Positions 2,085 through 57,545 of a stretch of DNA of 60,219 nt are shown piece by piece. Position numbers and translations under genes: made by a program. The DNA lies in NCBI GenBank assembly GCA_902634455.1, contig CACPKQ010000006.1, forward strand, positions 1 through 60,219, written 5' to 3'. Every line of letters begins with the position of its first letter. Within the stretch, counting starts at the first letter, position 1. The DNA comes from an uncultured Pelagibacteraceae bacterium (GTDB taxonomy: Bacteria; Pseudomonadota; Alphaproteobacteria; Pelagibacterales; Pelagibacteraceae). The notes below the pieces were generated by a model. It saw nothing but the letters and a program-made list of their open reading frames with translations, did no database searches and was not told the origin of the DNA.

Positions 2085-3020
2085 TTAAACAGTATTTTTC
2101 TTTACCCCATTTAATAGAAAATCAGTCATTTGATTTGCGACCATTTCAGCTACTACTATTGAAGCTTCAGTAGTTGATGCAGCTATATGAGGAGTCAAGA
2201 TTGCTTTTGGGTTGTTAAATAAAATATTTTCTTTTGCTGGTTCTTTTGAAAAAACATCTAAAGCAGCTCCAGCTATCAAATTTTCATTTAAAGCATCATT
2301 TAGATCTTTTTCATCAACAATATTTCCTCGTGCTGCGTTAATTATATAAGTAGTAGTTTTCATTTTTTTATAATGTTCTTTAGTTAATAATGGTTTGCCA
2401 TCAGCTGCTGCTTTGCAATGAAAACTTATTATGTCGCTATTACTAATTAAATCATCAAAACTAACATCGTTCACATGAGGAAAATCTTTCTTTCTCGAAG
2501 CAAGCGATTTTGAGTTTACTAAAATTTTTACATCAAAGCCTTTAACTAATTGGCTTAATCTAACACCAACATTTCCAAAACCTACTATACCAAGTGTTTT
2601 TTTTGAAAACTCAGTTCCTTTGATATTTTTTTTCTCCCACTGGCCCTTATGAGTTGTTTCATTTGCGTATGGAGTTTTTCTAAGTACTGACATTATTAAT
2701 GCGAATGCATGTTCTGCTGTTGCGTTAGCATTTCCTCCTGGAGTGTTCATAACAATCATATTTTTTTCTTTAGCTGCAACAACATCTATATTATCAACTC
2801 CTGCCCCCGCTCTTCCTATAACTTTTAAATTTTTTGCTGCTAAAATTATATTTTTAGTTACTTTAGTAGCTGATCTAACAACCATACCATCATATTCTGG
2901 AATTATTTTTACAATTTCTTCTTCAGACAAACCTGTCTTTACATCAACTGAAATATTATTTTTTTCAAATATTTTTTGAGCAACATTACTCATTGAGTCT
3001 GATATTAAAATTTTAGGCAT
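2085..3020 (-). CDS. serA: D-3-phosphoglycerate dehydrogenase, short form without ACT domain
   Basis: SerA oxidises 3-phosphoglycerate to 3-phosphohydroxypyruvate with NAD, the first step of serine synthesis. The 311-residue protein shows the dinucleotide motif LGIVGFGNVG near residues 143-152, the substrate Arg in NAARGNIVDE (R231), Glu260 and the catalytic His278 in LTPHIAAST. It ends soon after the catalytic domain and lacks the C-terminal ACT region of long SerA proteins, so serine feedback through ACT is not expected. It overlaps the end of serC by 8 bases. Other 2-hydroxyacid dehydrogenases share the fold, but the position next to serC settles the call. Confidence 0.92.
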   Translation of the reverse strand: MPKILISDSMSNVAQKIFEKNNISVDVKTGLSEEEIVKIIPEYDGMVVRSATKVTKNIILAAKNLKVIGRAGAGVDNIDVVAAKEKNMIVMNTPGGNANATAEHAFALIMSVLRKTPYANETTHKGQWEKKNIKGTEFSKKTLGIVGFGNVGVRLSQLVKGFDVKILVNSKSLASRKKDFPHVNDVSFDDLISNSDIISFHCKAAADGKPLLTKEHYKKMKTTTYIINAARGNIVDEKDLNDALNENLIAGAALDVFSKEPAKENILFNNPKAILTPHIAASTTEASIVVAEMVANQMTDFLLNGVKKNTV

Positions 3021-4167
3021 TATTTTTTACCGAATGATATGCCCAGTCTATCCAAGGTAACAATACTTTCATGTCATCATTTTGTACTGTTGCTCCACCC
3101 CATATTCTAAGACTTGGCGGTGCTTTAGCGTATCCATTAATATCGTTAGCAACACCTTCTTTTTTAAGTATTGAAACAATTTTTTTAATTGTATCTCTTT
3201 GTTCTTCTTCTTTAAATTTATTAAACCAATCATCTTTAATACTAAGCGTGATGCTTGTTGAAGATCTTGAGTTTTTGTCTTCACACATAAATTTAATCCA
3301 ACTACTTTTATTTACCCAATTTTCTACAATATTAAGATTTTCATTAGAAATTTTCATTAATTCTTTTGAACCACCAATAGATTCAACCCAGTTTAAAGCA
3401 TCTAAAACGTCTTCAACACAAATCATTGATGGGGTGTTAATAGTACTTCCTTCAAAGATTCCTTTAATTAATTTTTTTTTATTAGCTATTCTAAATAATT
3501 TTGGTATTGGCCAAGAAGGAATATGATTTTCTAATCTTTGAACTGCACGTGGTGATAAAGCTAACATACCATGTGAAGCTTCACCTCCCAAAACTTTTTG
3601 CCAAGACCAAGTAATTACATCAAGTTTATTATAATCCATTTCCATAGCGAAAATACCTGAGGTAGCATCACAAATAGTTAATCCTTTTCTATCACTTGGT
3701 ATCCAGTCAGCATTTGGAACTCTTACTCCAGAAGTGGTTCCGTTCCATGTAAAAATTACATCATTATCAAAATTTACCCTGTTTAAATCTGGTAGTTTTC
3801 CATAATCAGCTAAATGACTATTTACTTTTTTAATTTTTAACTGATCAATTACATCTGCTACCCAATCTTTTCCAAAATTTTCCCAAGCTAGAATATCAAC
3901 GTCATTTAACCCCAGTAAGGACCAAAGTGCTGCTTCTAAAGATCCAGTATTTGAACCTGGCATAATTCCTAAAAGATAATTATCTGGCAATTTTAATAAT
4001 TGCTTAGATTTAACTATAGCTTCATTTAGTTTTTCTTTGCATTCTTTTGATCTATGAGATCTTCCTACAGGTGAATTTTTTAATGATTCAATACTCCAAC
4101 CTGGTCGTTTAGCGCATGGTCCGCTAGAAAAATTTGTATTGCCAGGTTTTATTGTTGGCTTTTCCAT
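3013..4167 (-). CDS. serC: Phosphoserine aminotransferase
   Basis: SerC transfers the amino group of glutamate to 3-phosphohydroxypyruvate, making O-phospho-L-serine; it uses PLP. The 384-residue length and motifs match the alphaproteobacterial SerC type: NFSSGPCAKRPGW near the start, GSNTGSLEAALW, WNGTTSGVRVPNADW, and the PLP Lys in SWQKVLGGEASHG (K191). It sits between the upstream DUF1015 gene and downstream serA, all on the minus strand. Only 63 bases separate it from DUF1015, so one transcript is likely. No serB (phosphoserine phosphatase) is seen in this window. Confidence 0.94.
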   Translation of the reverse strand: MEKPTIKPGNTNFSSGPCAKRPGWSIESLKNSPVGRSHRSKECKEKLNEAIVKSKQLLKLPDNYLLGIMPGSNTGSLEAALWSLLGLNDVDILAWENFGKDWVADVIDQLKIKKVNSHLADYGKLPDLNRVNFDNDVIFTWNGTTSGVRVPNADWIPSDRKGLTICDATSGIFAMEMDYNKLDVITWSWQKVLGGEASHGMLALSPRAVQRLENHIPSWPIPKLFRIANKKKLIKGIFEGSTINTPSMICVEDVLDALNWVESIGGSKELMKISNENLNIVENWVNKSSWIKFMCEDKNSRSSTSITLSIKDDWFNKFKEEEQRDTIKKIVSILKKEGVANDINGYAKAPPSLRIWGGATVQNDDMKVLLPWIDWAYHSVKNNA

Positions 4168-4230
4168 AAAAATTAATTTTTTTTAAACGTATAACGATAA
4201 AAAAAATTTTTGGAAGCTTTTAGTTTTGTT

Positions 4231-5433
4231 TTATTCAAAATCATATGCGACCAAACCGTCTAATGGTTTTGGATCAAACCAGGTAGATTTGGGAGGCATA
4301 GTTAGTCTTTTGTCAGCAAAATTAATAATATTTTCCATCTGAGTTGCAAATAAAGCAAAACCTACTTTTGCTTCACCTGAATTAACTTTTTTTTCAATAG
4401 CTTCTAAACCATGAAAACCTGCTAAAAAGTCAATTCTATTGTCGTATCTAGGATCGCCGATTCCTAAAGTAGGTTCTAGTAAATAGTAGTGTAATAAATT
4501 GATATCTAAATTAATGATATGAAATAAATTTGGATGAGGTTTTTCTTTAAGTTCCAAAGAATACCACTGTTTATCTAAATACATTCCAAATGTTTGAGGT
4601 TTTTTTGGTTTGAAATAAGAACTTTGTTTTTCTACTTTAAATTTTTTTTTAATTTCTTTAATAAAATCTTTCGGTGAATAACCATATAAATCTTTTATAA
4701 GTCTATTATAATCAAGTATTCTTGCTTGGCTTGTAGGAAAAATTGCTATCATAAAAAAATTGTATGCTTCCTCACCAGTATGATTTGGATTTTGATGTTG
4801 TTTAAACTGTGAAAGTTTTAATAAAGCTTCCATTCTGTGATGACCATCAGCAATATAAATTCTATTAATAGAATTAAATAAATCACTAATTTTTTCGACT
4901 TTATTTTTTTTATCAATTACCCACATCTCATGTTTGCATCCATCCATAGCTTCAAAAGAATAAAAAGCAGGATTGGTAAGTTCATTATCTACTAATTTAT
5001 TAAGCTGTTCGTTGTCGGGGTATACGGCGTATATAGGGCCTATTTGCGCATTTAAATTATCCATTTGTTTCATTCTTTTTTGAGCCCTTTCAATAAAAAT
5101 TTCTTCATGACCTCTAATATGTAAATTATCATAAGCGGATAATTTTGCTGTTCCCACTACTCCAACTTGTTTAAAATCTCCTTTAGAAATTTTATAAATA
5201 TAAAAAGAAAAATTTTTGTCTTTTGTTATTACTGATTTTTCTTTCATTAATTCGAATTGTTCTTTAGATTTTTTTTTATTTTCCGCATTAAAAACATTTA
5301 GATAGCTCCACGGATTTTTCTTTAGATGGTCTTTTTGCATATCTTCAGATAAATGATCTGTGCTTGCTATTGGAACCGAGGAAGAGTTTTCTTTGGTTGG
5401 TCTTAAAGCTTTAAATGGATTTATAAAATACAT
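4231..5433 (-). CDS. DUF1015 family protein (serine-pathway associated)
   Basis: This 400-residue protein fits DUF1015 (COG4198). The block MYFINPFKALRPT at the start and IYIADGHHRMEALL, with DGHHR at residues 196-200, are characteristic. The DGHHR loop resembles the nucleotide-binding loop of the ParB/sulfiredoxin fold, which also includes free-serine kinases such as archaeal SerK. That resemblance is by eye only. It lies between trpB2 and serC-serA on one strand, consistent with a role in serine or phosphoserine metabolism. There is no signal peptide or membrane segment. A kinase or phosphatase acting on serine/phosphoserine is a reasonable hypothesis but unproven. Confidence 0.85.
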   Translation of the reverse strand: MYFINPFKALRPTKENSSSVPIASTDHLSEDMQKDHLKKNPWSYLNVFNAENKKKSKEQFELMKEKSVITKDKNFSFYIYKISKGDFKQVGVVGTAKLSAYDNLHIRGHEEIFIERAQKRMKQMDNLNAQIGPIYAVYPDNEQLNKLVDNELTNPAFYSFEAMDGCKHEMWVIDKKNKVEKISDLFNSINRIYIADGHHRMEALLKLSQFKQHQNPNHTGEEAYNFFMIAIFPTSQARILDYNRLIKDLYGYSPKDFIKEIKKKFKVEKQSSYFKPKKPQTFGMYLDKQWYSLELKEKPHPNLFHIINLDINLLHYYLLEPTLGIGDPRYDNRIDFLAGFHGLEAIEKKVNSGEAKVGFALFATQMENIINFADKRLTMPPKSTWFDPKPLDGLVAYDFE

Positions 5434-5473
5434 TGTGACTACTCATCAATCTTATAAATAAAACTTATTTCCT

Positions 5474-6835
5474 TTAGGCAATTTTTGGTAACTTTTCTAA
5501 TGCTGAGTTTACTTCTGCCTCATTGTATTTATCATCAGAAAGTTTGTTATTAAAATAATCACCATAAGCCTGCATGTCAAAATGACCATGACCACATAAA
5601 TTGAAAAGAATTGTTTTCTTTTCTCCATTTTTTTTGCACTCAAGAGCAGCATCTATTGCTCCTTTCACAGCATGAGTTGCTTCTGGAGCTGGAACAATTC
5701 CTTCTGCATTTGCAAATTTTACACCAGCATCAAAACATTCTTTTTGACCAAAGGCTTTAGCTTCAACAGCACCTATGTCTACAAGATGACTTACCATTGG
5801 TGCCATACCATGATATCTCAAACCACCAGAATGAGTTGACGGTGGCATGAAAGAAGAACCTAAAGTATGCATTTTAACTAAAGGTGTTCGATTTCCAGTA
5901 TCTCCAAAATCATATGCAAATTTACCTTTTGTTAAAGAAGGGCAAGATTTTGGTTCACATGCAATTACCCTAATATCTTTTTTTTCTCTAAATTTTTTTC
6001 CAAGAAATGGAAATACTAATCCAGAAAAATTACTTCCACCACCTGTGCATCCAACCAATATATCTGGGTAATCATTTGCCATTTCCATTTGTATTATTGC
6101 TTCATTTCCAACTATAGTTTGGTGCATTAATACATGATTTAAAACACTTCCGAGTGAATATTTAGTTGATTTATCTTGTGCAGCCATTTCTACAGCTTCG
6201 GAAATAGCTATACCTAAGCTTCCTGAATTATTTGGATCTTTTTCTAAAATAGCTTTACCTGTTGGAGTTCGGTTGGATGGACTAGCATAACAATTTGCTC
6301 CAAATGTTTGCATAATCATTTTTCTATATGGTTTTTGTTCATAACTTACTTTAACCATATAGACATCTAGCTCGATTTTAAAAATTGAACATGCAAAAGC
6401 TAGTGAGCTTCCCCATTGTCCTGCACCAGTTTCAGTTGTAATTTTTTTTGTGCCTTCTTCTTTGTTATAAAAAGCTTGGGCAACTGCAGTATTAGGTTTA
6501 TGACTTCCTGTTGGACTTACTCCTTCGTACTTGTAATAAATTTTAGCAGTAGTATCTAAAGCTTTTTCAAGTTTTCTAGCCCTATATAATGGAGAAGGTC
6601 TCCATTGCTTATAAATTTCTCTAACAGGTTCTGGAATTTCAATTTCTCTTTCTTGCGATACTTCTTGTCCTATGAGTGCCATTGGAAACAAAGGCGCTAA
6701 ATCATCTGGTCCAACAGGTTTAAGAGTCCCAGGATGAAGTACTGGTGAAAGAGGTTTTGGAAGATCTGCTGCAATATTATACCAAGTTTTCGGCATTTTG
6801 CTTTCTTCTAGTAAAAATTTAATTTTATCAGACAT
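5474..6835 (-). CDS. trpB2: TrpB2-type tryptophan synthase beta chain
   Basis: This is a PLP enzyme of the TrpB2 branch, which condenses indole with serine or O-phosphoserine to give tryptophan. At 453 residues it is longer than classical TrpB1 (about 400) and has the TrpB2-specific N-terminus (KTWYNIAADLP..LHPGT). The PLP Lys is in SPTGSHKPNTA (K113). The catalytic Glu is in ETGAGQWG, and a phosphate-binding loop GCTGGGSNF is present. No trpA lies next to it, as expected for this type. It is the first gene of a minus-strand run ahead of DUF1015, serC and serA, so it sits beside the enzyme that makes O-phosphoserine. Confidence 0.9.
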   Translation of the reverse strand: MSDKIKFLLEESKMPKTWYNIAADLPKPLSPVLHPGTLKPVGPDDLAPLFPMALIGQEVSQEREIEIPEPVREIYKQWRPSPLYRARKLEKALDTTAKIYYKYEGVSPTGSHKPNTAVAQAFYNKEEGTKKITTETGAGQWGSSLAFACSIFKIELDVYMVKVSYEQKPYRKMIMQTFGANCYASPSNRTPTGKAILEKDPNNSGSLGIAISEAVEMAAQDKSTKYSLGSVLNHVLMHQTIVGNEAIIQMEMANDYPDILVGCTGGGSNFSGLVFPFLGKKFREKKDIRVIACEPKSCPSLTKGKFAYDFGDTGNRTPLVKMHTLGSSFMPPSTHSGGLRYHGMAPMVSHLVDIGAVEAKAFGQKECFDAGVKFANAEGIVPAPEATHAVKGAIDAALECKKNGEKKTILFNLCGHGHFDMQAYGDYFNNKLSDDKYNEAEVNSALEKLPKIA

Positions 6836-6890
6836 TTTATTTTTATGATAGTTTGTTATTTATATTAATTAAAATCAAGTATTAAATATA

Positions 6891-7550
6891 ATGATAGAAC
6901 TAAAGAAAGAGGTGATAAAATATGCACAAAAGCTTAACAGCACAAATTTATCTCCTTTAAGATCTGGGAATGTTTCTATAAGAGCAACCAAGGATAATGT
7001 TGAAGGTTTTCTTCTAACACCATCGGGTAAAAGATATGAAGATCTTGTACCAGAGGATATTGTTTTTCTTGCTTTAAAAGAAGAATATAACAATCTTAAA
7101 TTGTTTAATTCATCATTAAATCCTTCTTCTGAATGGAGATTTCATCAAGATATTTATTTAAAAAAAATTGAAGCTAAAGCTATAGTTCATGCTCATTCCC
7201 CTCATGCAACCGCAGTTTCAGCTCATGGAAAACCAATACCAGCATTTCATTATATGATAGCTTTAGCTGGAGGAGATGACATAAAGTGTGCAGAATATGC
7301 AACTTTTGGAACAACTGAATTATCAAAAAATATTCTAAAAGCTTTAGAAAAAAGAAAGGCTTGTCTAATGTCAAACCACGGACAGGTTGCATTTGGTACA
7401 AATTTAAAACAAGCTTTTGAACTTGCAGAAGAAGTAGAAAATATTTGCTATCAATACATAATTGCTTTAAAAATTGGAGATCCGAAGATTCTTTCATCTG
7501 CAGAGATGAATAAAATTTTGGATAAAATAAAACATTATAAAAAAGCATAA
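6891..7550 (+). CDS. Class II aldolase/adducin-family protein, candidate methylthioribulose-1-phosphate aldolase or dehydratase
   Basis: This 219-residue metal-dependent protein has the class II aldolase/adducin fold. Zinc ligands are visible in HAHSPHA and in MSNHGQVAFG near the C-terminus. The family includes fuculose-phosphate aldolase, ribulose-phosphate epimerase, MtnB (methylthioribulose-1-phosphate dehydratase) and Ald2 of the DHAP shunt. The gene lies 27 bases upstream of the SpeD-SpeE fusion, whose reaction yields methylthioadenosine, and mtnA is nearby. I therefore favour action on methylthioribulose-1-phosphate, either splitting it to DHAP and methylthioacetaldehyde or dehydrating it. 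Exact substrate cannot be read from sequence. It is divergent from trpB2 with a 55-base gap. Confidence 0.75.
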   Translation: MIELKKEVIKYAQKLNSTNLSPLRSGNVSIRATKDNVEGFLLTPSGKRYEDLVPEDIVFLALKEEYNNLKLFNSSLNPSSEWRFHQDIYLKKIEAKAIVHAHSPHATAVSAHGKPIPAFHYMIALAGGDDIKCAEYATFGTTELSKNILKALEKRKACLMSNHGQVAFGTNLKQAFELAEEVENICYQYIIALKIGDPKILSSAEMNKILDKIKHYKKA

Positions 7551-7577
7551 ATTTTTATAATTATTATTGAGGGAGCA

Positions 7578-8618
7578 ATGACTAAAGTAGGGGAACATAT
7601 AACTTTAGATATTATTGGAACTAAGAAGGAGTATTCTCCTTCATTTTATGAGAAACTTGTCTATAAAATTGCAAAAAAAGCAAAAGTTACTGTTTTAGGA
7701 ATTTCTAAGCACAAATTTGAGCCTCAAGGATTTACTTTAGTGGCATTATTAGCAGAAAGTCATATTAGTTTTCATACATTCCCTGAAAAAGGAATAGTAA
7801 GTTTTGATTTTTTTACTTGCGGAAAGGTATCACCTGCAGTTGCTTTAGATATTATTAAGAAAGAAATTGAACATAAAAGAATTGTGAAAAAAGAATTTAA
7901 CAGAGATTCCTTAGGTCTTTATGATGATATTTATAGTTCTCCAGGTCAAAAAAAATACTATGTAGTTAAAAAATATTTAGAAAATTTTACATCCAAAGTA
8001 GGACAACACATTGAAATTATTGATTTAGAGGAATTCGGTAAATCTTTGTTCATTGATAATGAGCTACAAGTAGCTGAAAAAGACGAGCATCTTTACAGTT
8101 CTACTTTTGTAAACTCAGGAATAAAATTAAATAAGAAAAATGACAAAGCAGCTATAATTGGAGGAGGAGATGGCGGCGTAGCCAGAGAGTGTATAAATAG
8201 AAATTTTAACTTTATAGATTGGTACGAACTTGATCCAGAAGTTGTTGAAGTTTGTGACAGACATTTATCTAAAGTAGGTCAAAGAGCAACAAAGAAAAAT
8301 TCTGTTAAATGTGTATGGGGGGATGCTTTTGAAAGTATTAAAAAAGTAGAAGAAAACAAATATGATAAAATATTTGTAGATCTAAATGATGATCAATATT
8401 GCATAGATCTTGCTGCAAAAAATATAAAATCTTTAAAGAGAATTCTTAAAACAAATGGCACCATAACAGCTCAAGTTGGTAGCCAAGATAAAAAACCAAA
8501 ACAGGTTAAAAATTGGTTGAATTTGTTCAATAGAAACTTTGGAAATGCAGAGTTAGATAGAGTACATATACCTAGTTTCGATTGTAATTGGAATTTTGCC
8601 ACGTCAATAAACAATTAA
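7578..8618 (+). CDS. Fused S-adenosylmethionine decarboxylase - aminopropyltransferase (SpeD-SpeE)
   Basis: One 346-residue chain joins two polyamine enzymes. Residues 1-110 are a bacterial SpeD proenzyme: AESHISFHTFPE contains the self-cleavage site Glu60-Ser61, where Ser61 would become the pyruvoyl group. His66 and Cys81 in FFTCGK are also present. Residues 114-346 are a spermidine-synthase-like domain with the SAM-binding loop IGGGDGGVARE (195-200 are GGGDGG) and the ELDPEVV block. The usual YHE...H segment after DE is replaced by YSSTFVNS, so the amine acceptor may not be putrescine. Self-cleavage would split off the first 60 residues, leaving the rest joined to SpeE. A strong ribosome site, GAGGGAG at 7569-7575, precedes the ATG. 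Confidence 0.9.
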   Translation: MTKVGEHITLDIIGTKKEYSPSFYEKLVYKIAKKAKVTVLGISKHKFEPQGFTLVALLAESHISFHTFPEKGIVSFDFFTCGKVSPAVALDIIKKEIEHKRIVKKEFNRDSLGLYDDIYSSPGQKKYYVVKKYLENFTSKVGQHIEIIDLEEFGKSLFIDNELQVAEKDEHLYSSTFVNSGIKLNKKNDKAAIIGGGDGGVARECINRNFNFIDWYELDPEVVEVCDRHLSKVGQRATKKNSVKCVWGDAFESIKKVEENKYDKIFVDLNDDQYCIDLAAKNIKSLKRILKTNGTITAQVGSQDKKPKQVKNWLNLFNRNFGNAELDRVHIPSFDCNWNFATSINN

Positions 8619-50375: not shown

Positions 50376-52265
50376 ATGACATATACAAAAGAAGCAGAAT
50401 TGTTTAATGATAAAAAAAAAAATTTATATATAATTGTTTTTTCTTTTTTAATTGTATTCTTTAAATGGCTGATATCTTTTTATATATTTTCTAACGAAAG
50501 TCTTGTTAATAAAGTAATCTTTGATGTAAAGGATTATTATTATTTTTCTCATATTATTAATCTGTCAGACTTAAATTTTTTTCCTAATTACCTACAAGAT
50601 GTAGAACCAAATAAACTTATGCCAATTCCTATTTATTCAATACTTTTTCACTCTCTACTCTATAAATTTTTAGGTTTATATACTTTTTTTCTATTAGAAT
50701 TTATTTCATTAACAATATTCTTATATATTTTTACAAAAATTTTTAATCAATTAGATTTTAACAATAGCTCAAGTATCATTCTTTCAATTTTAATTTTTAT
50801 CTTACCTTTTATTTTAGTTTATGGAGATAATTTGAAACTAAATTTCATTAATTTTGAAATTTTTAAAAGTCTTTATTCTTTTAGATTTCCAAGACCTTTA
50901 ATTACAAGTCTTTATTTTTTTTGGGGTTTATATTTAGCAATTAAATATTTTTTAAACGAAAATAATTCATTAAAAACTTATATATATATAGGTATTTGTT
51001 TATCACTATGTTTTGTAAGTTTTTATTATAATTTCATTAATCTTCTAATTTTATTTTTTATAATTTTTTTGATCAAAATTTTTAGAAAAAAAAACTTTCT
51101 TGTAAATGATGTAAAAAAAATAATAATATCAATTATCATCTTTATTGTTTTAATATCACCATTTTTAATTTTAATTTTTTTTTCAGAAAAAGATTACTCA
51201 ATTATGATAGGTGTTATAGAACTTAATTACGAAAGAAAAATTACATTATTATCTTACCTTTTTGGAAAAATTCTTTCTTTAAGATTTATTATGGTTTTTC
51301 TTGTTTTATCAACCATGTATTTTTTTTTAAATAAACAGAAAGATGTTCTTTGCAAAAAAACTTTATTAATACTATACATGTTGTTTTTAACGTCAGCAAT
51401 TTCTCCATTTTTTTTTATTTTAATAAGTCCAGCAGTAAGTGAAATTTATCATTTTTTAAATTGGATTTTAATAAATGCAATTTTTGTCTTTTCAATATTT
51501 TTAATTATTTTATTTAGATTATGGTTTAAGAAAATTAATATTAAAAAAATTTTAAAGTTTCAAAATAATAATTCTTTTATAAGTGTATTTTTTTTTCTTA
51601 TACTTATACTATTTCAAACTAATCATTATATTATTAATCAGAAAGATGCTCATATTTTAAGAACAGATTTTGAAATTTTACAAAGATTATTAAATGAAAA
51701 CAAAGAAAAGCTTAATGTTCTTTTAACCTTTATCCCTAGAGGACAAATTTGGTGGATACTTAACGATAAAACGGAACTTTCAACTATTGAGTCATCAATT
51801 TCATCATTAAACTTTAATCAACTTGAAAAAAGTTTTATTGATAATTTAAAGTTTCTAAATATATCAACAGATAATTTTCAAAAAATTATATCTAATAAAA
51901 AAGAAGAGTGGAGATATGATAATAAGTACATAAAGTATCTCTCTTATTATAAATATCAGGCAAATTCCTTAATAACTTATAAAAATTCTTTAGATTTTGA
52001 TGAAAGTGAAAAAAAATATATTTTAAAGTCTAGACCGACCAAAACACAACAAATAATGATACCAAATTTTGATATAAAAAGATTGATTAACCTTTATGAA
52101 AACTATGAGTCAAACAGTAAATTTAACGATCCTGATATAATAATAGTTCAGAAAAATAGTTTAATAGATAAATTCTCTAAAATTAATAATAAATTGTATT
52201 GCCAAATTAAAAACTTCAATTTTTTAAAAGTTTACGTTAAAATAAAAAAAGGTATTTGTAATTAA
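50376..52265 (+). CDS. Large multi-pass membrane protein, unknown (possible glycan transferase or polymerase)
   Basis: The 629-residue protein has about 11 hydrophobic segments over residues 15-430, followed by about 200 soluble residues (DAHILRTDFEILQRL, FIPRGQIWWIL, KSRPTKTQQ). This resembles the layout of polyprenyl-sugar-dependent glycosyltransferases of the GT-C fold, or of O-antigen polymerases. The first lumenal loop reads DVKDYYYFSHIINLSDLNFFP and holds Asp residues. I do not see a recognisable family motif. It is the last gene before the tRNA-Leu fragment, ending 16 bases upstream of the repeat. Its position in the operon fits glycan assembly. Confidence 0.6.
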   Translation: MTYTKEAELFNDKKKNLYIIVFSFLIVFFKWLISFYIFSNESLVNKVIFDVKDYYYFSHIINLSDLNFFPNYLQDVEPNKLMPIPIYSILFHSLLYKFLGLYTFFLLEFISLTIFLYIFTKIFNQLDFNNSSSIILSILIFILPFILVYGDNLKLNFINFEIFKSLYSFRFPRPLITSLYFFWGLYLAIKYFLNENNSLKTYIYIGICLSLCFVSFYYNFINLLILFFIIFLIKIFRKKNFLVNDVKKIIISIIIFIVLISPFLILIFFSEKDYSIMIGVIELNYERKITLLSYLFGKILSLRFIMVFLVLSTMYFFLNKQKDVLCKKTLLILYMLFLTSAISPFFFILISPAVSEIYHFLNWILINAIFVFSIFLIILFRLWFKKINIKKILKFQNNNSFISVFFFLILILFQTNHYIINQKDAHILRTDFEILQRLLNENKEKLNVLLTFIPRGQIWWILNDKTELSTIESSISSLNFNQLEKSFIDNLKFLNISTDNFQKIISNKKEEWRYDNKYIKYLSYYKYQANSLITYKNSLDFDESEKKYILKSRPTKTQQIMIPNFDIKRLINLYENYESNSKFNDPDIIIVQKNSLIDKFSKINNKLYCQIKNFNFLKVYVKIKKGICN

Positions 52266-52274
52266 AACTTACTA

Positions 52275-52303
52275 TTGTTTAATTATAAATATTAGCATAA
52301 ATA
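52275..52303 (+). promoter_or_regulatory. Promoter retained with the tRNA-Leu fragment
   Basis: TTGTTT at 52275-52280 and TAAATA at 52298-52303 lie 17 bases apart. The arrangement is the same as at the intact tRNA-Leu (TTGTTG, 57459-57464; TAAATA, 57482-57487). All bases from 52281 through the -10 are identical in both copies. Transcription here would pass through the tRNA fragment into the gene at 52431. Confidence 0.55.
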
Positions 52304-52361
52304 CTCATGAAATTCACAAATGCCCTCGTGGTGAAATTGGTAGACACAAAGGACTTAAAAT
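52281..52361 (+). repeat. Direct repeat copy 1: promoter plus 5' half of tRNA-Leu
   Basis: These 81 bases are identical to 57465-57545. They start upstream of the tRNA promoter -10 and end at the first base of the 3' anticodon stem. Weaker similarity continues on both sides (TTGTT just before, CTTG just after). The two copies are 5184 bases apart and bracket the phosphonate-transport island. Confidence 0.95.
52322..52361 (+). pseudogene. Truncated tRNA-Leu(UAA), 5' 40 nt only
   Basis: The segment carries the 5' acceptor strand GCCCTCG, the whole D arm, the 5' anticodon stem AAGGA and the full anticodon loop with TAA. It diverges after one base of the 3' stem. No 3' acceptor strand, T arm or CCA follows, so it cannot be a working tRNA. 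The replacement sequence contains nested inverted repeats: CTTGTAA at 52363-52369 with TTACAAG at 52406-52412, enclosing TACATA / TATGTA. Confidence 0.9.
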
Positions 52362-52430
52362 GCTTGTAATTTTACATATTACTTTATGTATTTTAAAGTG
52401 AGAGTTTACAAGGCTTAAACATAAAATTTT

Positions 52431-53558
52431 ATGTTAAAAATTTTTTTTGAATCATTAATTAATTTAATAAAATTTGTTAATATTGATAATAATAAAAAAG
52501 AATTTGTTTTTTATTCAGAATCTAAATTTTATAGAGATCATTTTGTTGATTTAATTCTTAATTTAAAAAAATTAGGACAAAATAATATTATCCTTATAAC
52601 TTCAGATAAAGATGATATAGCTTTTTTTAAAGGAATTTTAACATGCTTCTATATTAAAAATTATTTTATTTTAAGTATTTTTTTTAAAATATTAAATTGT
52701 AAATTTATGATAATGACTTTAACCGATATAGGTAATCATTTTGCAAAATCAAAATTGTGCAAATATTATGTATATTTTTTTCATGCAATTGCAAGTACTC
52801 ATAAAATTTATACACACTCAGCATTTAAGAATTATGATATCATCTTAAGTAATGGTGAATACCAAACTAAAGAATTAACTTTGGCAGAAGAAAAGTTTAA
52901 TTTTCCAAAGAAAGAAATAGTGAATTCAGGTTATTTTTTTTTAGACAATATTAAAAGGAAAGCTAATTTAAAATCTAAGAAAAAACGTCATATTCTTTTT
53001 GCTCCATCTTGGAATTACAATAAAAGTAACTTATTTGATGATTATTGTATTGAAATAGTATCTAATTTATTAACAAAAAATTTTACACTAACTCTTAGAC
53101 CACATCCTGAACATTATACAAGGTCAAAAAAAACAATTAATAAAATAAAAGACTTATTTTTAAATAATGAAAATTTTTTTTTAGATAAAAATTTTTCAAA
53201 TTTGAAGTCATTGGAAAAATCCGAAATTCTTATTACTGACAATTCTTCAATTGTTTTTGAGTTTATATTAATTTTTGAAAGACCAATCATCTACATAGAT
53301 TATAAAGACAAGGTTCATAATGTAAGCATAGATAAAATATCCATAAAATCTATCGATGATGAATTCAAGGAAAATTTTGGCAATATATTAAATATCTCAG
53401 ATTTAGAAAAGCTACCCGGATTATGTGAAAATTTATTAATTAAAAATAATCTTTCTAGCGATTCAATAAATTCTTTTTCGAAAAAATATTTATCTAATTT
53501 AAATAATTCTGCCTCATTTGCTTCAAACTACTTAATTAATAAATCTAATAATGAATAA
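52431..53558 (+). CDS. CDP-glycerol glycerophosphotransferase-like protein (TagB/TagF family)
   Basis: This 375-residue GT-B-type enzyme has the blocks of PF04464, which transfers a phospho-alcohol from a CDP-alcohol to a glycan, as in teichoic acid synthesis. They are FFHAIASTHKIYTHSAF, DIILSNGEYQTKEL, ILFAPSWNY, LTLRPHPEHY and ILITDNSSIVFEFI. A teichoic acid is not expected in a Gram-negative, so the product is probably a phospho-alcohol decoration of a surface polysaccharide. It starts 69 bases after the tRNA-Leu fragment, whose promoter could drive it. The next gene encodes a cytidylyltransferase, a fitting source of the CDP- or CMP-linked donor. Confidence 0.82.
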   Translation: MLKIFFESLINLIKFVNIDNNKKEFVFYSESKFYRDHFVDLILNLKKLGQNNIILITSDKDDIAFFKGILTCFYIKNYFILSIFFKILNCKFMIMTLTDIGNHFAKSKLCKYYVYFFHAIASTHKIYTHSAFKNYDIILSNGEYQTKELTLAEEKFNFPKKEIVNSGYFFLDNIKRKANLKSKKKRHILFAPSWNYNKSNLFDDYCIEIVSNLLTKNFTLTLRPHPEHYTRSKKTINKIKDLFLNNENFFLDKNFSNLKSLEKSEILITDNSSIVFEFILIFERPIIYIDYKDKVHNVSIDKISIKSIDDEFKENFGNILNISDLEKLPGLCENLLIKNNLSSDSINSFSKKYLSNLNNSASFASNYLINKSNNE

Positions 53559-53612
53559 AAATTGTTAAAAGATATTTTTAAATAATTTGATAAACATGAT
53601 TTAAAATAATAA

Positions 53613-53618
53613 TATAAT
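53613..53618 (+). promoter_or_regulatory. Perfect -10 box (TATAAT) just upstream of the HTH-cytidylyltransferase gene
   Basis: TATAAT ends 6 bases before the ATG at 53625, so transcription would be expected to begin at about the first base of the start codon, giving a leaderless message. A poorer -35 (TTGATA, 53587-53592) is 20 bases upstream, which is too far for an optimal promoter. No Shine-Dalgarno sequence is present. Confidence 0.45.
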
Positions 53619-53624
53619 TGTCTT

Positions 53625-54761
53625 ATGGCAATTAAAAATAATTTTAAAATAAATTTTGGTCCATACATACGAGATTTACGAATTAAAAATGGTTTTGGTC
53701 AAAGAGAACTAGCCAAAAAAATTGGTGTTGCCGCATCGTATTTAAATGATATTGAAAAAGAAAAACGTGCTGCTCCTAAAGCAACCATAATAAAAAAGTT
53801 ATCTGTTTTACTTAAAACAAATATTGATTATCTAAATGATCTTGCTGGAATTTCAAAAAAAAGCTTAGCACCTGATATTGACGAATATATTGAGAGTAAT
53901 TCGCAAATAATTTCTCTTATAAGGTCTATTAAAAATAACAACCTAAATAATGAACAAATAAATGATATAGAAAATTCTATTAATAAAAATAATACCAAGG
54001 TATTAATTATTGCAGCGGGATTAGGAAGTAGATTAAAAAAACATACAGAAAATTTACCCAAATGCATGTTGGATTTTGGAGGAAAAACATTACTTGAAAG
54101 ACAACTAGATGCTTATAAAAAATGTGGTGTTAAAGATATTTCTGTAATTAGAGGGTATAAAAAAGACAAAATTAATTACAAAGGTTTAAAATATTTTGAG
54201 AATACAGATTATCGCAATAACAATATTTTAAATTCTATTTTTTATGCTGAAAAAATTATTAATGGCAATATCATAATCTCATATTCTGATATTTTATTTG
54301 AACCCGTTGTTGTTCAAAGAGCACTTGAATCTAATCATGATATCTCTGTAGTTGTTGATATTGATTGGAGAGGTTATTATGTTGGTCGTAAAGACCATCC
54401 AATTTCTGAAGCAGAAAATGTAATATTTAACTCGAATAATGAAGTTCAAAAAATAGGAAAAATTAACACAACTAATGAAGAAGTTCATGGAGAGTTTATA
54501 GGCATGATCAAGTTATCAAACAGAGGTGCTAATATTTTTAAACAACATTTTAATAGGTTAAAAAAAATTTACTGGAACAAACCATTCCAGAGAGCAAAAA
54601 CTTTTCAAAAAGCTTACTTAACAGACATGATTCAAGAACTTGTAGATATTGGTATTAAAGTTCATTGTGTAATTATTGAAAGTGGGTGGAAAGAGATTGA
54701 TACAGTAGAAGATTATAAGAAAGCTCTTGTAGGATTTAAAAAAAAATTCACAAAAACTTAA
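53625..54761 (+). CDS. XRE helix-turn-helix domain fused to a LicC/PntC-like cytidylyltransferase
   Basis: A 378-residue fusion. Residues 10-72 are a Cro/cI-type helix-turn-helix (LRIKNGFGQRELAKKIGVAA..LNDIEKEKR). Residues 125-375 are a nucleotidyltransferase with the NTP loop IIAAGLGSRLKKHTENLPKC (129-148), the NNNILNSIFYA block, metal SYSDILF, VDIDWRGYYVGRKDHP and ESGWKEIDTVEDY. The latter blocks match choline-phosphate (LicC) and 2-aminoethylphosphonate (PntC) cytidylyltransferases rather than hexose-1-phosphate enzymes. The fusion hints at an enzyme that also senses its product and regulates its own operon. It sits between a CDP-alcohol transferase and a phosphonate-type importer. Confidence 0.82.
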   Translation: MAIKNNFKINFGPYIRDLRIKNGFGQRELAKKIGVAASYLNDIEKEKRAAPKATIIKKLSVLLKTNIDYLNDLAGISKKSLAPDIDEYIESNSQIISLIRSIKNNNLNNEQINDIENSINKNNTKVLIIAAGLGSRLKKHTENLPKCMLDFGGKTLLERQLDAYKKCGVKDISVIRGYKKDKINYKGLKYFENTDYRNNNILNSIFYAEKIINGNIIISYSDILFEPVVVQRALESNHDISVVVDIDWRGYYVGRKDHPISEAENVIFNSNNEVQKIGKINTTNEEVHGEFIGMIKLSNRGANIFKQHFNRLKKIYWNKPFQRAKTFQKAYLTDMIQELVDIGIKVHCVIIESGWKEIDTVEDYKKALVGFKKKFTKT

Positions 54762-54778
54762 TATTTTTTTTCATTAAA

Positions 54779-54805
54779 ATTAACTTGTAAGCGAACAAAG
54801 TTAAT
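54779..54805 (+). promoter_or_regulatory. Inverted repeat upstream of phnD, candidate operator
   Basis: ATTAACTT at 54779-54786 and AAGTTAAT at 54798-54805 form perfect 8-base arms with an 11-base spacer; GT and AC inside the arms extend the pairing imperfectly. It ends 18 bases before the phnD ATG (54824). No T-run follows, so it is not an intrinsic terminator. The adjacent HTH-containing gene makes an operator plausible. No clear Pho box is seen. Confidence 0.5.
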
Positions 54806-54823
54806 GATAGAGAAATAACATTA

Positions 54824-55678
54824 ATGATAAAAAAAACTTTATTAATAATATTATTAATTTTATTTACTGGAATTTTGAATGCTGAGGAAAAAACATATAA
54901 AATGGTTTTTGTTCCAGCTAGTGAAAAAGGTGATGAAAGTGATTATACATCTTTAATTTCAATTACAGAAGAACTTACAGGTTTTAATATAGATATAATT
55001 AAAGTCACTGACTATAATGCAGCGGTTGAAGCTATGAGAGCAGGAAGAGCTCATATAGCTTGGTATGGTGGCAAAACATATGTTAAAGCTGCTGAGATAG
55101 CTAACGCTGAAGCGTTTGCTGCAGGCGTAAGACCTGGTGAAAAAGATGCTGGATACTATACTTATTTTGTAGTTAAGGAAGATAGTGACATAAAAAAATT
55201 TACTGATCTTAAAGGTAAAGTTTTATCATTAAACACTATAGGATCAACAAGTGGAGATCTTATTCCTCAAGTTGAACTTAATAAGATTAATCTTTCAATT
55301 AAAAATAAGGAACATTTTGAAAATGTGTTTTATGCTGGTAGTCATGATGCTTGCTTATTAGCTGTATTAAATAATCAAGCTAATGTTTGTGGAATGAGTT
55401 CTAGAAATTTTGAAGCTAGATTAGAGGACGGAACAATTGAATTTAGTGATGTTAGAATCATTCATAAGTCTGACAGGGTTCCACCACCACCTTTAGCTTA
55501 CTCAAAGTTAATTCCAAAAGAAGATAGAAAAAAAATTAAAAATGCTGTTTTAGAGGCTCACAAACATGGTGAGATAGGTGGATATGGAGGAAAAATGTCT
55601 CACTACATGGAAGTTAAAGATTCTGACTATAATGTCTTAAGACAAGTAATTAAATTACTAAATAAAAATAAAAGTTAA
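54824..55678 (+). CDS. phnD: Phosphonate/phosphite-type ABC transporter binding protein
   Basis: This 284-residue periplasmic protein has a signal peptide (MIKKTLLIILLILFTGILNA, cleavage after residue 20). It shows the PhnD pattern: YKMVFVPASEKGDE, DYNAAVEAMRAGRAHIAWYGG, KGKVLSLNTIGSTSGDLIPQ and FYAGSHDACLLAVLNNQANVC. Family members bind 2-aminoethylphosphonate, methylphosphonate, phosphite or related compounds. It begins the phnD-phnC-phnE set. No C-P lyase gene (phnGHIJ) is in the window, so the imported compound is not obviously broken down here. Confidence 0.88.
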   Translation: MIKKTLLIILLILFTGILNAEEKTYKMVFVPASEKGDESDYTSLISITEELTGFNIDIIKVTDYNAAVEAMRAGRAHIAWYGGKTYVKAAEIANAEAFAAGVRPGEKDAGYYTYFVVKEDSDIKKFTDLKGKVLSLNTIGSTSGDLIPQVELNKINLSIKNKEHFENVFYAGSHDACLLAVLNNQANVCGMSSRNFEARLEDGTIEFSDVRIIHKSDRVPPPPLAYSKLIPKEDRKKIKNAVLEAHKHGEIGGYGGKMSHYMEVKDSDYNVLRQVIKLLNKNKS

Positions 55679-55701
55679 AAATAATAAAACTGAACCAACT
55701 T

Positions 55702-56424
55702 ATGCTTGAAATAAACGATCTAAAAAAAACTTTTGACAACGGCAGTCCTGCTCTAAAAGGAGTAAATTTAAAAATTAATAAAGGGGAATTCGTTTCTATA
55801 TTAGGACCAAGTGGGTCAGGCAAAACAACTTTACTTAGAAGTATTAATGGTCTCGAGAGCATCAGTGGAGGAGAAATTTATTTTAATAAAAAAAAAGTAG
55901 ATGATAATTCGATAAAAGACGTCCAAAAAAAAACTGGCATGATTTTTCAAGAATTTAATTTAGTAAACAATCTATCAGCAATTAATAATGTTCTTACAGG
56001 TCTTTTAAATTCAAGTAATAAGTTTTTGTCATTATTTTATTTATTTGAAAAAAATCAAAAGTTAAAAGCTTTAGAATCTTTAGAAACAGTTGGTCTGCTT
56101 GAAAAATCTTATAATAGAGCTGATGAATTATCAGGAGGTCAAAGACAAAGAGTTGGTATTGCAAGAGCTATTATAAAAAAACCGTTATTGTTATTAGCAG
56201 ATGAACCTGTAGCTAGTTTAGATCCTAAAGCGGCAAATATAATTTTGTTATTATTAAAAAAGATCAATAAAGAATTTGGAACAACTATTATTTGTAATTT
56301 ACATCAATTTGATTTAGCTAAAAAATATTCAGATAGATTAATAGGCCTTCTTGATGGAAAAATAATATTTGATGAAAAATCAAATAGTATAAACAAATTA
56401 GATTTGGAACAAATTTATAATTAA
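55702..56424 (+). CDS. phnC: Phosphonate-type ABC transporter ATPase
   Basis: This 240-residue ABC ATPase has Walker A GPSGSGKTT, Q-loop MIFQEFNLV, signature LSGGQRQRVGIARA, Walker B LLLADEPVASLD and switch His in CNLHQFDLAKKY. The block QEFNLVNNLSAINNVLTG and DEPVASLDPKAA are typical of PhnC. Since the gene lies between phnD and phnE, the ATPase belongs to that importer. It starts 23 bases after phnD and ends 1 base before phnE. Confidence 0.92.
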   Translation: MLEINDLKKTFDNGSPALKGVNLKINKGEFVSILGPSGSGKTTLLRSINGLESISGGEIYFNKKKVDDNSIKDVQKKTGMIFQEFNLVNNLSAINNVLTGLLNSSNKFLSLFYLFEKNQKLKALESLETVGLLEKSYNRADELSGGQRQRVGIARAIIKKPLLLLADEPVASLDPKAANIILLLLKKINKEFGTTIICNLHQFDLAKKYSDRLIGLLDGKIIFDEKSNSINKLDLEQIYN

Positions 56425-56425
56425 T

Positions 56426-57253
56426 ATGAAAAATAATATCTTAAAATTAAAAGTTGATAATAGATATAAAAATTTAGAAAACTATTTAAAACCTCAATGG
56501 TCTTGGAAAACCTTTGCTTTAATAGCATTATTTAGCTTGATTTTAGTCTTCATTGTTCAAGATTTAGAAATAGATTTTTTCAAATTAATGACAGATTCTT
56601 CAAAATATTTTGGGGATATTATATCAAGAATGCTTCCTCCAGATTTTAGTAATTTTAATAATTTGCTATATGCAATGTTTGAAACAATAGAAATAGCTTT
56701 TTTAGGTACTTTTATTGCAATAGTTTTGTCAATACCATTAGGTTTATTTTCTGCTAGAAATTTAGCTCCTAATTATTTTGTTTATATCTTTTCAAAAACA
56801 ATAATTATATTTTTTAGAGCAATACCTGAATTTATTATTGCAATGATATTAGTTATTGCAATTGGATTTGGAGCTATACCGGGTGTATTAGCTTTAGGTT
56901 TACATACGATGGGTTTTTTAGCAAAATTTTATGCTGAAGACATTGAACATATAAACAAAGGACCAATCGATGCTCTTAAATCTTCAGGTGCCACAAAAAG
57001 TCAAATAATTTCTTTTGGCGTTATTCCACAAATCTTGCCATCTTTCGTTGCAAATAATTTATACATATTAGATAGAAACATAAGAATGGCCACAATGTTA
57101 GGAATTGTTGGCGCAGGTGGTATAGGTTATGAATTACAATCTTCTTTCAGAATGTTTGAATATGAAAGAGTTTCCGCAATAATAATACTTATTTTTTTAA
57201 CAATTTTTTTAATAGACCATTTGTCATCATTTATAAGATCTAAAATTAAGTAA
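56426..57253 (+). CDS. phnE: Phosphonate-type ABC transporter permease
   Basis: This 275-residue inner-membrane permease has about six helices. The conserved cytoplasmic loop for ATPase contact is DALKSSGATKSQIISFGVIPQILPS. It also has SIPLGLFSARNLAP near helix 2 and MATMLGIVGAGGIGYELQSSFRMF in the C-terminal part, as in PhnE proteins. Many marine phosphonate loci carry two PhnE genes; only one is present here, so the channel should be a homodimer. It is separated from the tRNA-Leu repeat by 211 bases that contain a 35-codon ORF. Confidence 0.92.
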   Translation: MKNNILKLKVDNRYKNLENYLKPQWSWKTFALIALFSLILVFIVQDLEIDFFKLMTDSSKYFGDIISRMLPPDFSNFNNLLYAMFETIEIAFLGTFIAIVLSIPLGLFSARNLAPNYFVYIFSKTIIIFFRAIPEFIIAMILVIAIGFGAIPGVLALGLHTMGFLAKFYAEDIEHINKGPIDALKSSGATKSQIISFGVIPQILPSFVANNLYILDRNIRMATMLGIVGAGGIGYELQSSFRMFEYERVSAIIILIFLTIFLIDHLSSFIRSKIK

Positions 57254-57323
57254 TTTTTGAAATTAAAGCAACACTAGAGCTCTAATAGATAATGTTGTAC
57301 GTTGACATTATGAAAAAATTTTT

Positions 57324-57431
57324 ATGAATTTGAACTGGGATTTAATTTGGACCATACTACAAGTAGTTTCATTATTAATTATAGCTAGAGAAATTGACAA
57401 AAGAATACGGAAAAGAAAAAATAATAAATGA
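57324..57431 (+). CDS. Small 35-residue putative membrane protein
   Basis: A short frame, starting MNLNWDLIWTILQ and ending in a basic tail REIDKRIRKRKNNK. It contains one hydrophobic helix (about residues 6-20) followed by many Lys and Arg residues, the usual pattern of small single-pass proteins. It lies between phnE and the right tRNA-Leu repeat and ends 33 bases before it. No good ribosome site is seen upstream, and chance cannot be excluded in such AT-rich DNA. Confidence 0.4.
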   Translation: MNLNWDLIWTILQVVSLLIIAREIDKRIRKRKNNK

Positions 57432-57458
57432 ATGGAAAAAAAATTTTACTTATTCCAC

Positions 57459-57487
57459 TTGTTGAATTATAAATATTAGCATAAATA
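57459..57487 (+). promoter_or_regulatory. Promoter of tRNA-Leu(UAA)
   Basis: TTGTTG at 57459-57464 and TAAATA at 57482-57487 are 17 bases apart. Transcription would start around 57494, leaving a leader of about 12 bases before the tRNA. The same elements occur upstream of the tRNA fragment at 52322. Confidence 0.55.
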
Positions 57488-57545
57488 CTCATGAAATTCA
57501 CAAATGCCCTCGTGGTGAAATTGGTAGACACAAAGGACTTAAAAT
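57465..57545 (+). repeat. Direct repeat copy 2: promoter plus 5' half of intact tRNA-Leu
   Basis: These 81 bases are identical to 52281-52361 and belong to the intact tRNA-Leu gene and its promoter. The identity ends at the 3' side of the anticodon loop, a common crossover point for integrases that target tRNA genes. Confidence 0.95.

Follow-up and report, generated by a model that had tools for sequence, protein, structure and literature searches.

The window, by which we mean the whole stretch of 60,219 nucleotides analysed here, is contig C6 of an uncultured Pelagibacteraceae (SAR11) assembly of 1.09 Mb that is 81% complete. It holds a gene that fuses a helix-turn-helix (HTH) regulator domain to a nucleotidyltransferase and that lies downstream of glycan-type genes and a PF04464 transferase gene and upstream of phnD, phnC and phnE (Table 1). 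The window's PhnD scores 204 bits against the TIGR03431 PhnD model, under the cut-off of 261.1.

Table 1. Positions of the fusion gene, its domains, the operator-like block and the neighbouring genes in the window.
Feature	Positions	Strand	Basis
CDP-glycerol glycerophosphotransferase-like gene, candidate acceptor transferase (putative role)	52431..53558	+	PF04464 E 7.9e-13
HTH-nucleotidyltransferase fusion gene	53625..54761	+	378 aa, ATG start
XRE/SinR-like HTH domain, residues 11-72	53655..53840	+	Pfam HTH_3, AlphaFold2, Foldseek
Helical segment, residues 73-122, possible oligomerisation hairpin	53841..53990	+	AlphaFold2 helices, 8bny profile match
LicC/PntC-type nucleotidyltransferase domain, residues 123-374	53991..54746	+	Pfam, PDB matches, alignment
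-10-like hexamer TAAAAT of the phnD promoter	54775..54780	+	Column conservation over 34 sites; aligned set: TATAAT
27-base inverted repeat	54779..54805	.	Conserved block in alignment of relatives
Operator-like core TTGTAAGCGAACAA (consensus TTGTWAGCGAACAA)	54785..54798	.	Sole exact copy in own assembly (81% complete)
phnD, phosphonate-binding protein	54824..55678	+	PF12974 E 2e-49; TIGR01098 above cut-off
phnC, phosphonate ABC ATPase	55702..56424	+	TIGR02315 312 bits, above cut-off
phnE, phosphonate ABC permease	56426..57253	+	TIGR01097 288.5 bits, above cut-off

A rare SAR11 fusion gene beside phosphonate import genes

A search of genome contigs returned 31 related loci, all titled Pelagibacteraceae or Candidatus Pelagibacter (SAR11). 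The locus set used below comprises 34 loci, of which 33 bear the HTH (L028 lacks it), and 32 of these 33 have a readable downstream side because the sequence of L026 ends inside the fusion gene; L031, matched over the last 105 residues only, was left out of the set. In a sample of 297 SAR11-family genomes, the full fusion is present in 7, while 227 show some match, the other listed ones being partial. A close phnD (E up to 1e-40) occurs in all 7 full-fusion genomes versus 2 of the 290 others, and these two (one by partial match), for each of which part of the stretch could not be read, count neither way. Besides the window's own, the match tables for 385 class genomes (84 matched, at E up to 1e-12) and 398 phylum genomes (22 matched, at E up to 1e-20) show no HTH-enzyme fusion; four matches were inspected and the others judged from the tables. 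The four inspected start ahead of residue 80 and extend into the enzyme; they belong to PepM-enzyme fusions (G466, G936 and G507) or a lone enzyme (G933). G371 and G523 match the HTH half alone and are uninformative (the neighbouring open reading frames retained include no reference gene, and the matching frames are not among them), and the match in G334 covers profile positions 90-207 and not the HTH itself. The fusion is a rare, conserved SAR11 gene, kept in 33 loci with 71-86% identity among the aligned proteins. A viral origin was considered and rejected: a scan of viral contigs with two peptide patterns gave no relative, and the 8 phage records that matched hold one domain each.

Downstream of the fusion gene, phnDCE follows in 30 of the 32 HTH-bearing loci. 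The exceptions are L004, where the gene for a methylphosphonate synthase (MPnS; 6b9s, E 1.7e-108) takes this place, and L022, which continues with a glycosyltransferase gene and has neither phnD nor the motif described below. The next upstream gene, readable in 27 loci, is PF04464-like in 7 (window included), mannose-1-phosphate guanylyltransferase-like in 6 and of some other kind in 11; in the remaining 3 (L004, L025 and L032) it is an iron alcohol dehydrogenase (ADH) gene behind genes for Ppd and a cytidylyltransferase-PepM protein (CyT-PepM), families that were named on L032. The upstream gene of L026, outside the 27, is guanylyltransferase-like too, and the HTH-less L028 also has a PF04464-like gene immediately upstream. 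None of the annotated neighbours of the fusion gene is a choline kinase. Together with the relatives considered below, these neighbours point to a pathway of phosphonate import, synthesis and tailoring. As observations in their own right, positions 4483-10570 of L004 form an apparent SAR11 methylphosphonate operon (CyT-PepM, Ppd, Fe-ADH, the HTH-nucleotidyltransferase fusion, the motif and MPnS), and positions 1-753 of L012 hold an additional, incomplete phnD/phnC pair that shares 86-88% identity with that of the window and lacks the exact motif.

The two halves of the protein and their relatives

The protein had been described as an XRE-type HTH joined through a polar linker to a complete nucleotidyltransferase, and the joining of the HTH to an enzyme with intact motifs is borne out by Pfam matches to both domains and by the motif alignment. 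The HTH_3 model matches residues 15-70 (E 5.3e-11, 42.8 bits versus a cut-off of 23). AlphaFold2, run on a 29-row alignment (whole-chain mean pLDDT 57), places five helices within residues 11-74, with mean pLDDT values of 81-89 for blocks of residues 11-70, and in Foldseek this domain superposes with an rmsd of 1.2 A on SinR in complex with DNA (3zkc; TMt 0.86) and on P22 c2 (TMt 0.85-0.87), in agreement with the HTH fold that structure prediction had been meant to check. SinR is also the closest regulator by profile, and the match to the immunity repressor 8bny spans profile positions 7-119, i.e., the region of the HTH and the following helical segment. The HTH fold is thus alike in SinR, P22 c2 and immunity repressors (TMt 0.85-0.87), but those regulators lack an enzyme domain. 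The supposed linker is real as a joining segment, though it is predicted with moderate confidence to be mostly helical (residues 83-91, 93-104 and 109-122) and might form an oligomerisation hairpin. In the recognition region, G34 and the run S38-Y-L-N-D-I-E-K45 are conserved in at least 90% of the alignment. Across 29 of the 33 HTH-bearing genes (406 pairs), pN/pS is 0.157 for helices 2-3, 0.321 for the HTH, 0.425 for residues 73-122 and 0.148 for the enzyme, i.e., the DNA-reading helices are constrained as strongly as the enzyme.

The enzyme half matches NTP_transf_3 (PF12804) at residues 126-244 (E 2e-10, 41.5 bits versus a cut-off of 27). Its best PDB sequence match is LicC, a CTP:phosphocholine cytidylyltransferase (1jyk; E 1.4e-12 by single sequence and 8.2e-16 by profile), and the PntC domain of the Treponema denticola protein PntC-AEPT (6pd1) ranks fourth in the single-sequence search and second in the profile search (E 1e-9). 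The consensus GXG(S/T)RX4-8PK is present as G132-x-G134-S-R136 ... P145-K146; in 29 aligned sequences, which include the query and the HTH-less L028, its G, G, R, P and K are invariant and S135 nearly so. R136, K146, D222, E357 and D359 are likewise invariant in these 29 sequences, and we presume the roles of D222, E357 and D359 from the LicC/PntC alignment. For R136 and K146, assigned by motif, the catalytic roles of arginine and lysine are those given in the PntC paper (PMC6697681). Since AlphaFold2 modelled this half poorly, at a quality too low for pocket analysis, the earlier description of the enzyme as complete holds at the level of intact sequence motifs. An alignment of 20 domains singled out no substrate. 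A sugar-nucleotide enzyme was rejected, as such models match weakly and far under their cut-offs and the gene context is one of phosphonate genes.

Relatives without the HTH bear on the substrate class. The closest HTH-less SAR11 forms seen were L028, with 269 aa and 84% identity, and L094, with 47% identity. L094 belongs to a gene row that also comprises CyT-PepM, Ppd, an alcohol dehydrogenase and an MPnS-like gene (6b9s, E 5.8e-70). Twenty further neighbourhoods of HTH-less relatives were compared with reference genes. They include L190 (an MPnS-like gene, a PF04464-like gene slightly short of the cut-off and an alcohol dehydrogenase at 64 bits), the SAR11 locus L202 (CyT-PepM, Ppd and ADH), PepM-enzyme fusions with Ppd in L207-L209, loci that combine a PF04464-like gene with a weak match to CyT (L191 and L196) and loci with an ABC ATPase (L192 and L195); L227 and L228 are PepM-enzyme fusions as well. 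In L194 (G371:C12, positions 2461-6878), from a non-SAR11 genome of the same class, phnC-phnD-phnE-phnE directly precedes an HTH-less enzyme, which gives another case of the enzyme next to phosphonate import genes, here with the regulator absent. Ten of the 20 neighbourhoods (L193, L197-L201 and L203-L206) hold no reference gene besides the enzyme. The genomic link to phosphonate genes therefore consists of phnDCE at nearly all fusion loci, PepM/Ppd/ADH genes adjoining three, MPnS at one and the PepM-fused relatives. Because several HTH-less relatives adjoin or are fused with phosphonate genes, and by the logic of PntC (PMC6697681), the enzyme half is most likely a phosphonate cytidylyltransferase.

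Known systems frame this assignment. PntC-AEPT (6pd1/6pd2) shares the nucleotidyltransferase superfamily and the consensus, and its family is tied to phosphonate biosynthesis (PMC6697681); here an HTH takes the place of an aminotransferase or PepM as fusion partner, the gene mostly lies beside an importer, and in one alignment Glu104 of Tde-PntC falls on Tyr220. The lic scheme, in which a compound is imported, activated and attached to a glycan (PMC6697681), is comparable to the fusion locus, which differs from LicC in its phosphonate importer or synthesis genes and in the HTH fusion. Fom1-type cytidylyltransferase-PepM enzymes, which likewise activate a phosphonate with CTP (PMC6697681), are separate proteins of the CTP_transf_like family without an HTH, and it is a gene of this kind that lies upstream of the fusion in L004, L025 and L032.

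A conserved block behind the -10-like hexamer of phnD

The inverted repeat noted earlier just after the fusion gene is present, with arms ATTAACTT and AAGTTAAT and an 11-base spacer. Taken alone it is not significant, with 32 inverted pairs in the same AT-rich stretch of 1.3 kb; it is more than chance because it is conserved in relatives, where alignment of the gap before phnD gives the block TATAAT-TAACTTGTWAGCGAACAAAGTTAATG. Columns were counted over 34 sites from 32 loci (30 phnD loci, L004 and L031); the search pattern itself dictated core columns 0-1 and 4-9. The counts T18 A29 T21 A27 A29 T34 of 34, for positions -12 to -7 relative to the core, describe a -10 box, directly behind which the core starts. 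A consensus promoter scan did not list the window's -10 at 54775 and found no -35.

The 12-base core TGTWAGCGAACA precedes phnD in 30 of 30 loci: 22 copies are exact, 7 have one change (L008, L023, L024, L025, L027, L086 and L088) and 1 has two (L032). In L004, which lacks phnD, the block precedes MPnS. Allowing one change, no core was found in the HTH-less L028 and L094, nor in L022 though its HTH is present. The repeat had been proposed to let the protein control its own operon; its operator-like character, conservation and confinement to the locus hold up, but it precedes the next operon, phnDCE. A second core does precede the fusion gene itself in L011, L013 and L014, which have no same-strand open reading frame just upstream. 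L012, L019 and L089 also lie behind an opposite-strand frame yet have no such core, so autoregulation is not general.

We searched for the exact 12-base core in 36 genomes, namely the 33 with an HTH-bearing gene, that of L031, and two HTH-less ones, L028's and G221. It matched 30 times in 26 genomes, with 29 matches at the fusion/phnD locus, against 5 for a reversed control. Genome by genome, 28 of the 30 tally with the copies in the loci; of the other two, one precedes phnD in the genome of L026, on a different contig, and one lies elsewhere (G073:C1) with no reference gene nearby. A 13-base core gave 11 matches in 10 genomes of the 297-genome family sample, 3 of them at the locus, versus 13 control matches, and the core elsewhere in SAR11 is thus at background level; G073:C1, the one inspected of the 8 matches away from the locus, adjoins no reference gene. 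The other fusion genomes in that sample (G252, G277, G073 and G006) carry near variants before phnD. The block is therefore a strongly conserved, operator-like element that is near-exclusive to the fusion locus, and a putative binding site. The GTTCGCT half of it resembles the SinR consensus GTTCTYT (PMC3163267). Two arrangements deserve mention on their own: tandem cores before phnD in L007 (4908 and 4940) and L008 (9167 and 9200), 32-33 bases or about three helical turns apart, and, before phnD in L023, L025 and L032, an additional partial core in inverted orientation (TGTTCGCTAAA) that precedes the main core by about 30 bases.

Proposed function and alternative explanations

NadR of Enterobacterales resembles the fusion protein in having an N-terminal HTH and a nucleotidyltransferase in one protein, the latter being of another fold class than the enzyme half studied here. 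The pathway is a different one, and the fusion protein has no kinase domain (neither the NMN adenylyltransferase nor the ribosylnicotinamide kinase family of NadR is among its Pfam matches and the 25 of 31 NCBIfam matches listed), which makes NadR a comparison of how such a protein may work and not of family membership. In the pathway to which it belongs, NadR represses genes for uptake and for synthesis, among them pnuC, and orthologues without the HTH exist (PMC12421817).

We think it rather probable that the fusion protein is a bifunctional, NadR-like enzyme-repressor that supplies CMP-phosphonate for the tailoring of glycans and, according to its ligand state, represses genes of uptake or synthesis. 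Its C-terminal domain would move CMP from CTP, the presumed donor, onto a small phosphonate (perhaps methyl-, hydroxyethyl- or aminoethylphosphonate) that could be imported or home-made, and the neighbouring PF04464 or another glycan transferase would attach the phosphonate of CMP-phosphonate to a surface polysaccharide. PepM was found above cut-off in 8 of the 36 genomes (HTH-bearing L002, L004, L009, L025, L032 and G073, HTH-less L028's and G221), i.e., in 6 of 34 without the latter two, so a home-made substrate is not general, and most fusion genomes, whose assemblies are incomplete, show no phosphonate synthesis. The N-terminal XRE domain would bind TTGTWAGCGAACAA, directly behind the -10 hexamer of the following operon, and would repress rather than activate that operon, the target being phnDCE in most strains, methylphosphonate synthase in L004 and the fusion gene itself in a few. 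The affinity for DNA could then depend on whether substrate or product fills the active site, matching uptake to need as in NadR. Counting against this reading are L022, the -10 hexamer missed by the consensus scan, the score of PhnD under its equivalog cut-off, the PhnZ-like genes discussed next and the ten HTH-less neighbourhoods without reference genes.

One alternative, which we regard as improbable, is that the HTH does control phnDCE but that import feeds phosphorus nutrition by oxidative catabolism, the enzyme domain serving mainly as a ligand sensor with little biosynthetic role. PhnZ-like genes (162-170 bits, under cut-off) occur in 11 of the 36 genomes, all HTH-bearing and including the window's own, and 15 more have weak HD-type matches only. 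In the own genome, positions 4651-7597 of another contig (L226, G000:C9) hold a row of a PhnZ-like HD protein gene (170 bits), a TauD-family dioxygenase gene and a choline-dehydrogenase-like gene, possibly a phosphonate catabolic set; with the PhnZ-like gene adjoining a TauD-family gene, imported phosphonate might be catabolised. Yet this row lies away from the locus and without the motif, 25 of the 36 (incomplete) genomes have no comparably strong PhnZ match, and the enzyme is strongly constrained, has intact motifs and adjoins glycan or phosphonate-synthesis genes in many loci. That the C-P lyase gene phnJ was found in 0 of the 36 genomes says little because only 2 of 147 SAR11-family genomes have it.

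We give about equally low credence to a constitutive or autogenous repressor whose DNA binding is ligand-independent, with the fusion merely tying expression levels together. No coupling is visible in the sequence, and the inter-domain segment is the least constrained part of the protein, as this explanation would have it; it fits less well with a fusion kept in 33 loci at 71-86% identity among the aligned proteins and with ligand-controlled NadR as a precedent (PMC12421817), and an autogenous main role sits poorly with a core before the fusion gene in three loci only. Less probable still is binding of the block by another regulator or its action as a 5' UTR RNA element, with the HTH acting elsewhere: the outer arms can pair and differ between lineages (ATTAACTT.. 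vs TGTTATTA..) and L022 has an HTH and no block, but an RNA element was ruled against by RNAalifold, which gave no consensus pairs over 19 chosen sites, and by Rfam, which had no match in 52000-57500, and other points opposing this are copies with reduced or broken arms (L007 first copy, L011 and L014), the motif following the HTH gene even without phnD in L004 and its background level in other SAR11.

The favoured enzyme-repressor reading would bear on how SAR11 handles phosphonates. Our search of the open-licence literature found no paper on a SAR11 phosphonate nucleotidyl- or cytidylyltransferase fused to an HTH regulator, and the pertinent portions of two studies place SAR11 phosphonate genes often near glycan genes and name no such fusion (PMC8931226, PMC9381506). 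One of them states that SAR11 may account for as many as half of the plankton cells at the surface and is potentially a main producer of phosphonates, and classes cells as producers (by pepM) or consumers (by four degradation pathways) (PMC8931226); a locus for import plus activation would escape both labels. We raise, tentatively and as a possible though rather doubtful generalisation, a third SAR11 phosphonate lifestyle in which many non-makers scavenge phosphonates via PhnDCE and, instead of degrading them, attach them to their own surface glycans via CMP-phosphonate, under a repressor that doubles as the activating enzyme and senses its own substrate or product. If true, dissolved phosphonate would be re-used for surface decoration, with an effect on pools of methane-yielding methylphosphonate, and surface phosphonate would perhaps be relevant to defence against phages or grazers. 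The locus would also offer a NadR-style enzyme-repressor for phosphonates with a defined candidate operator.
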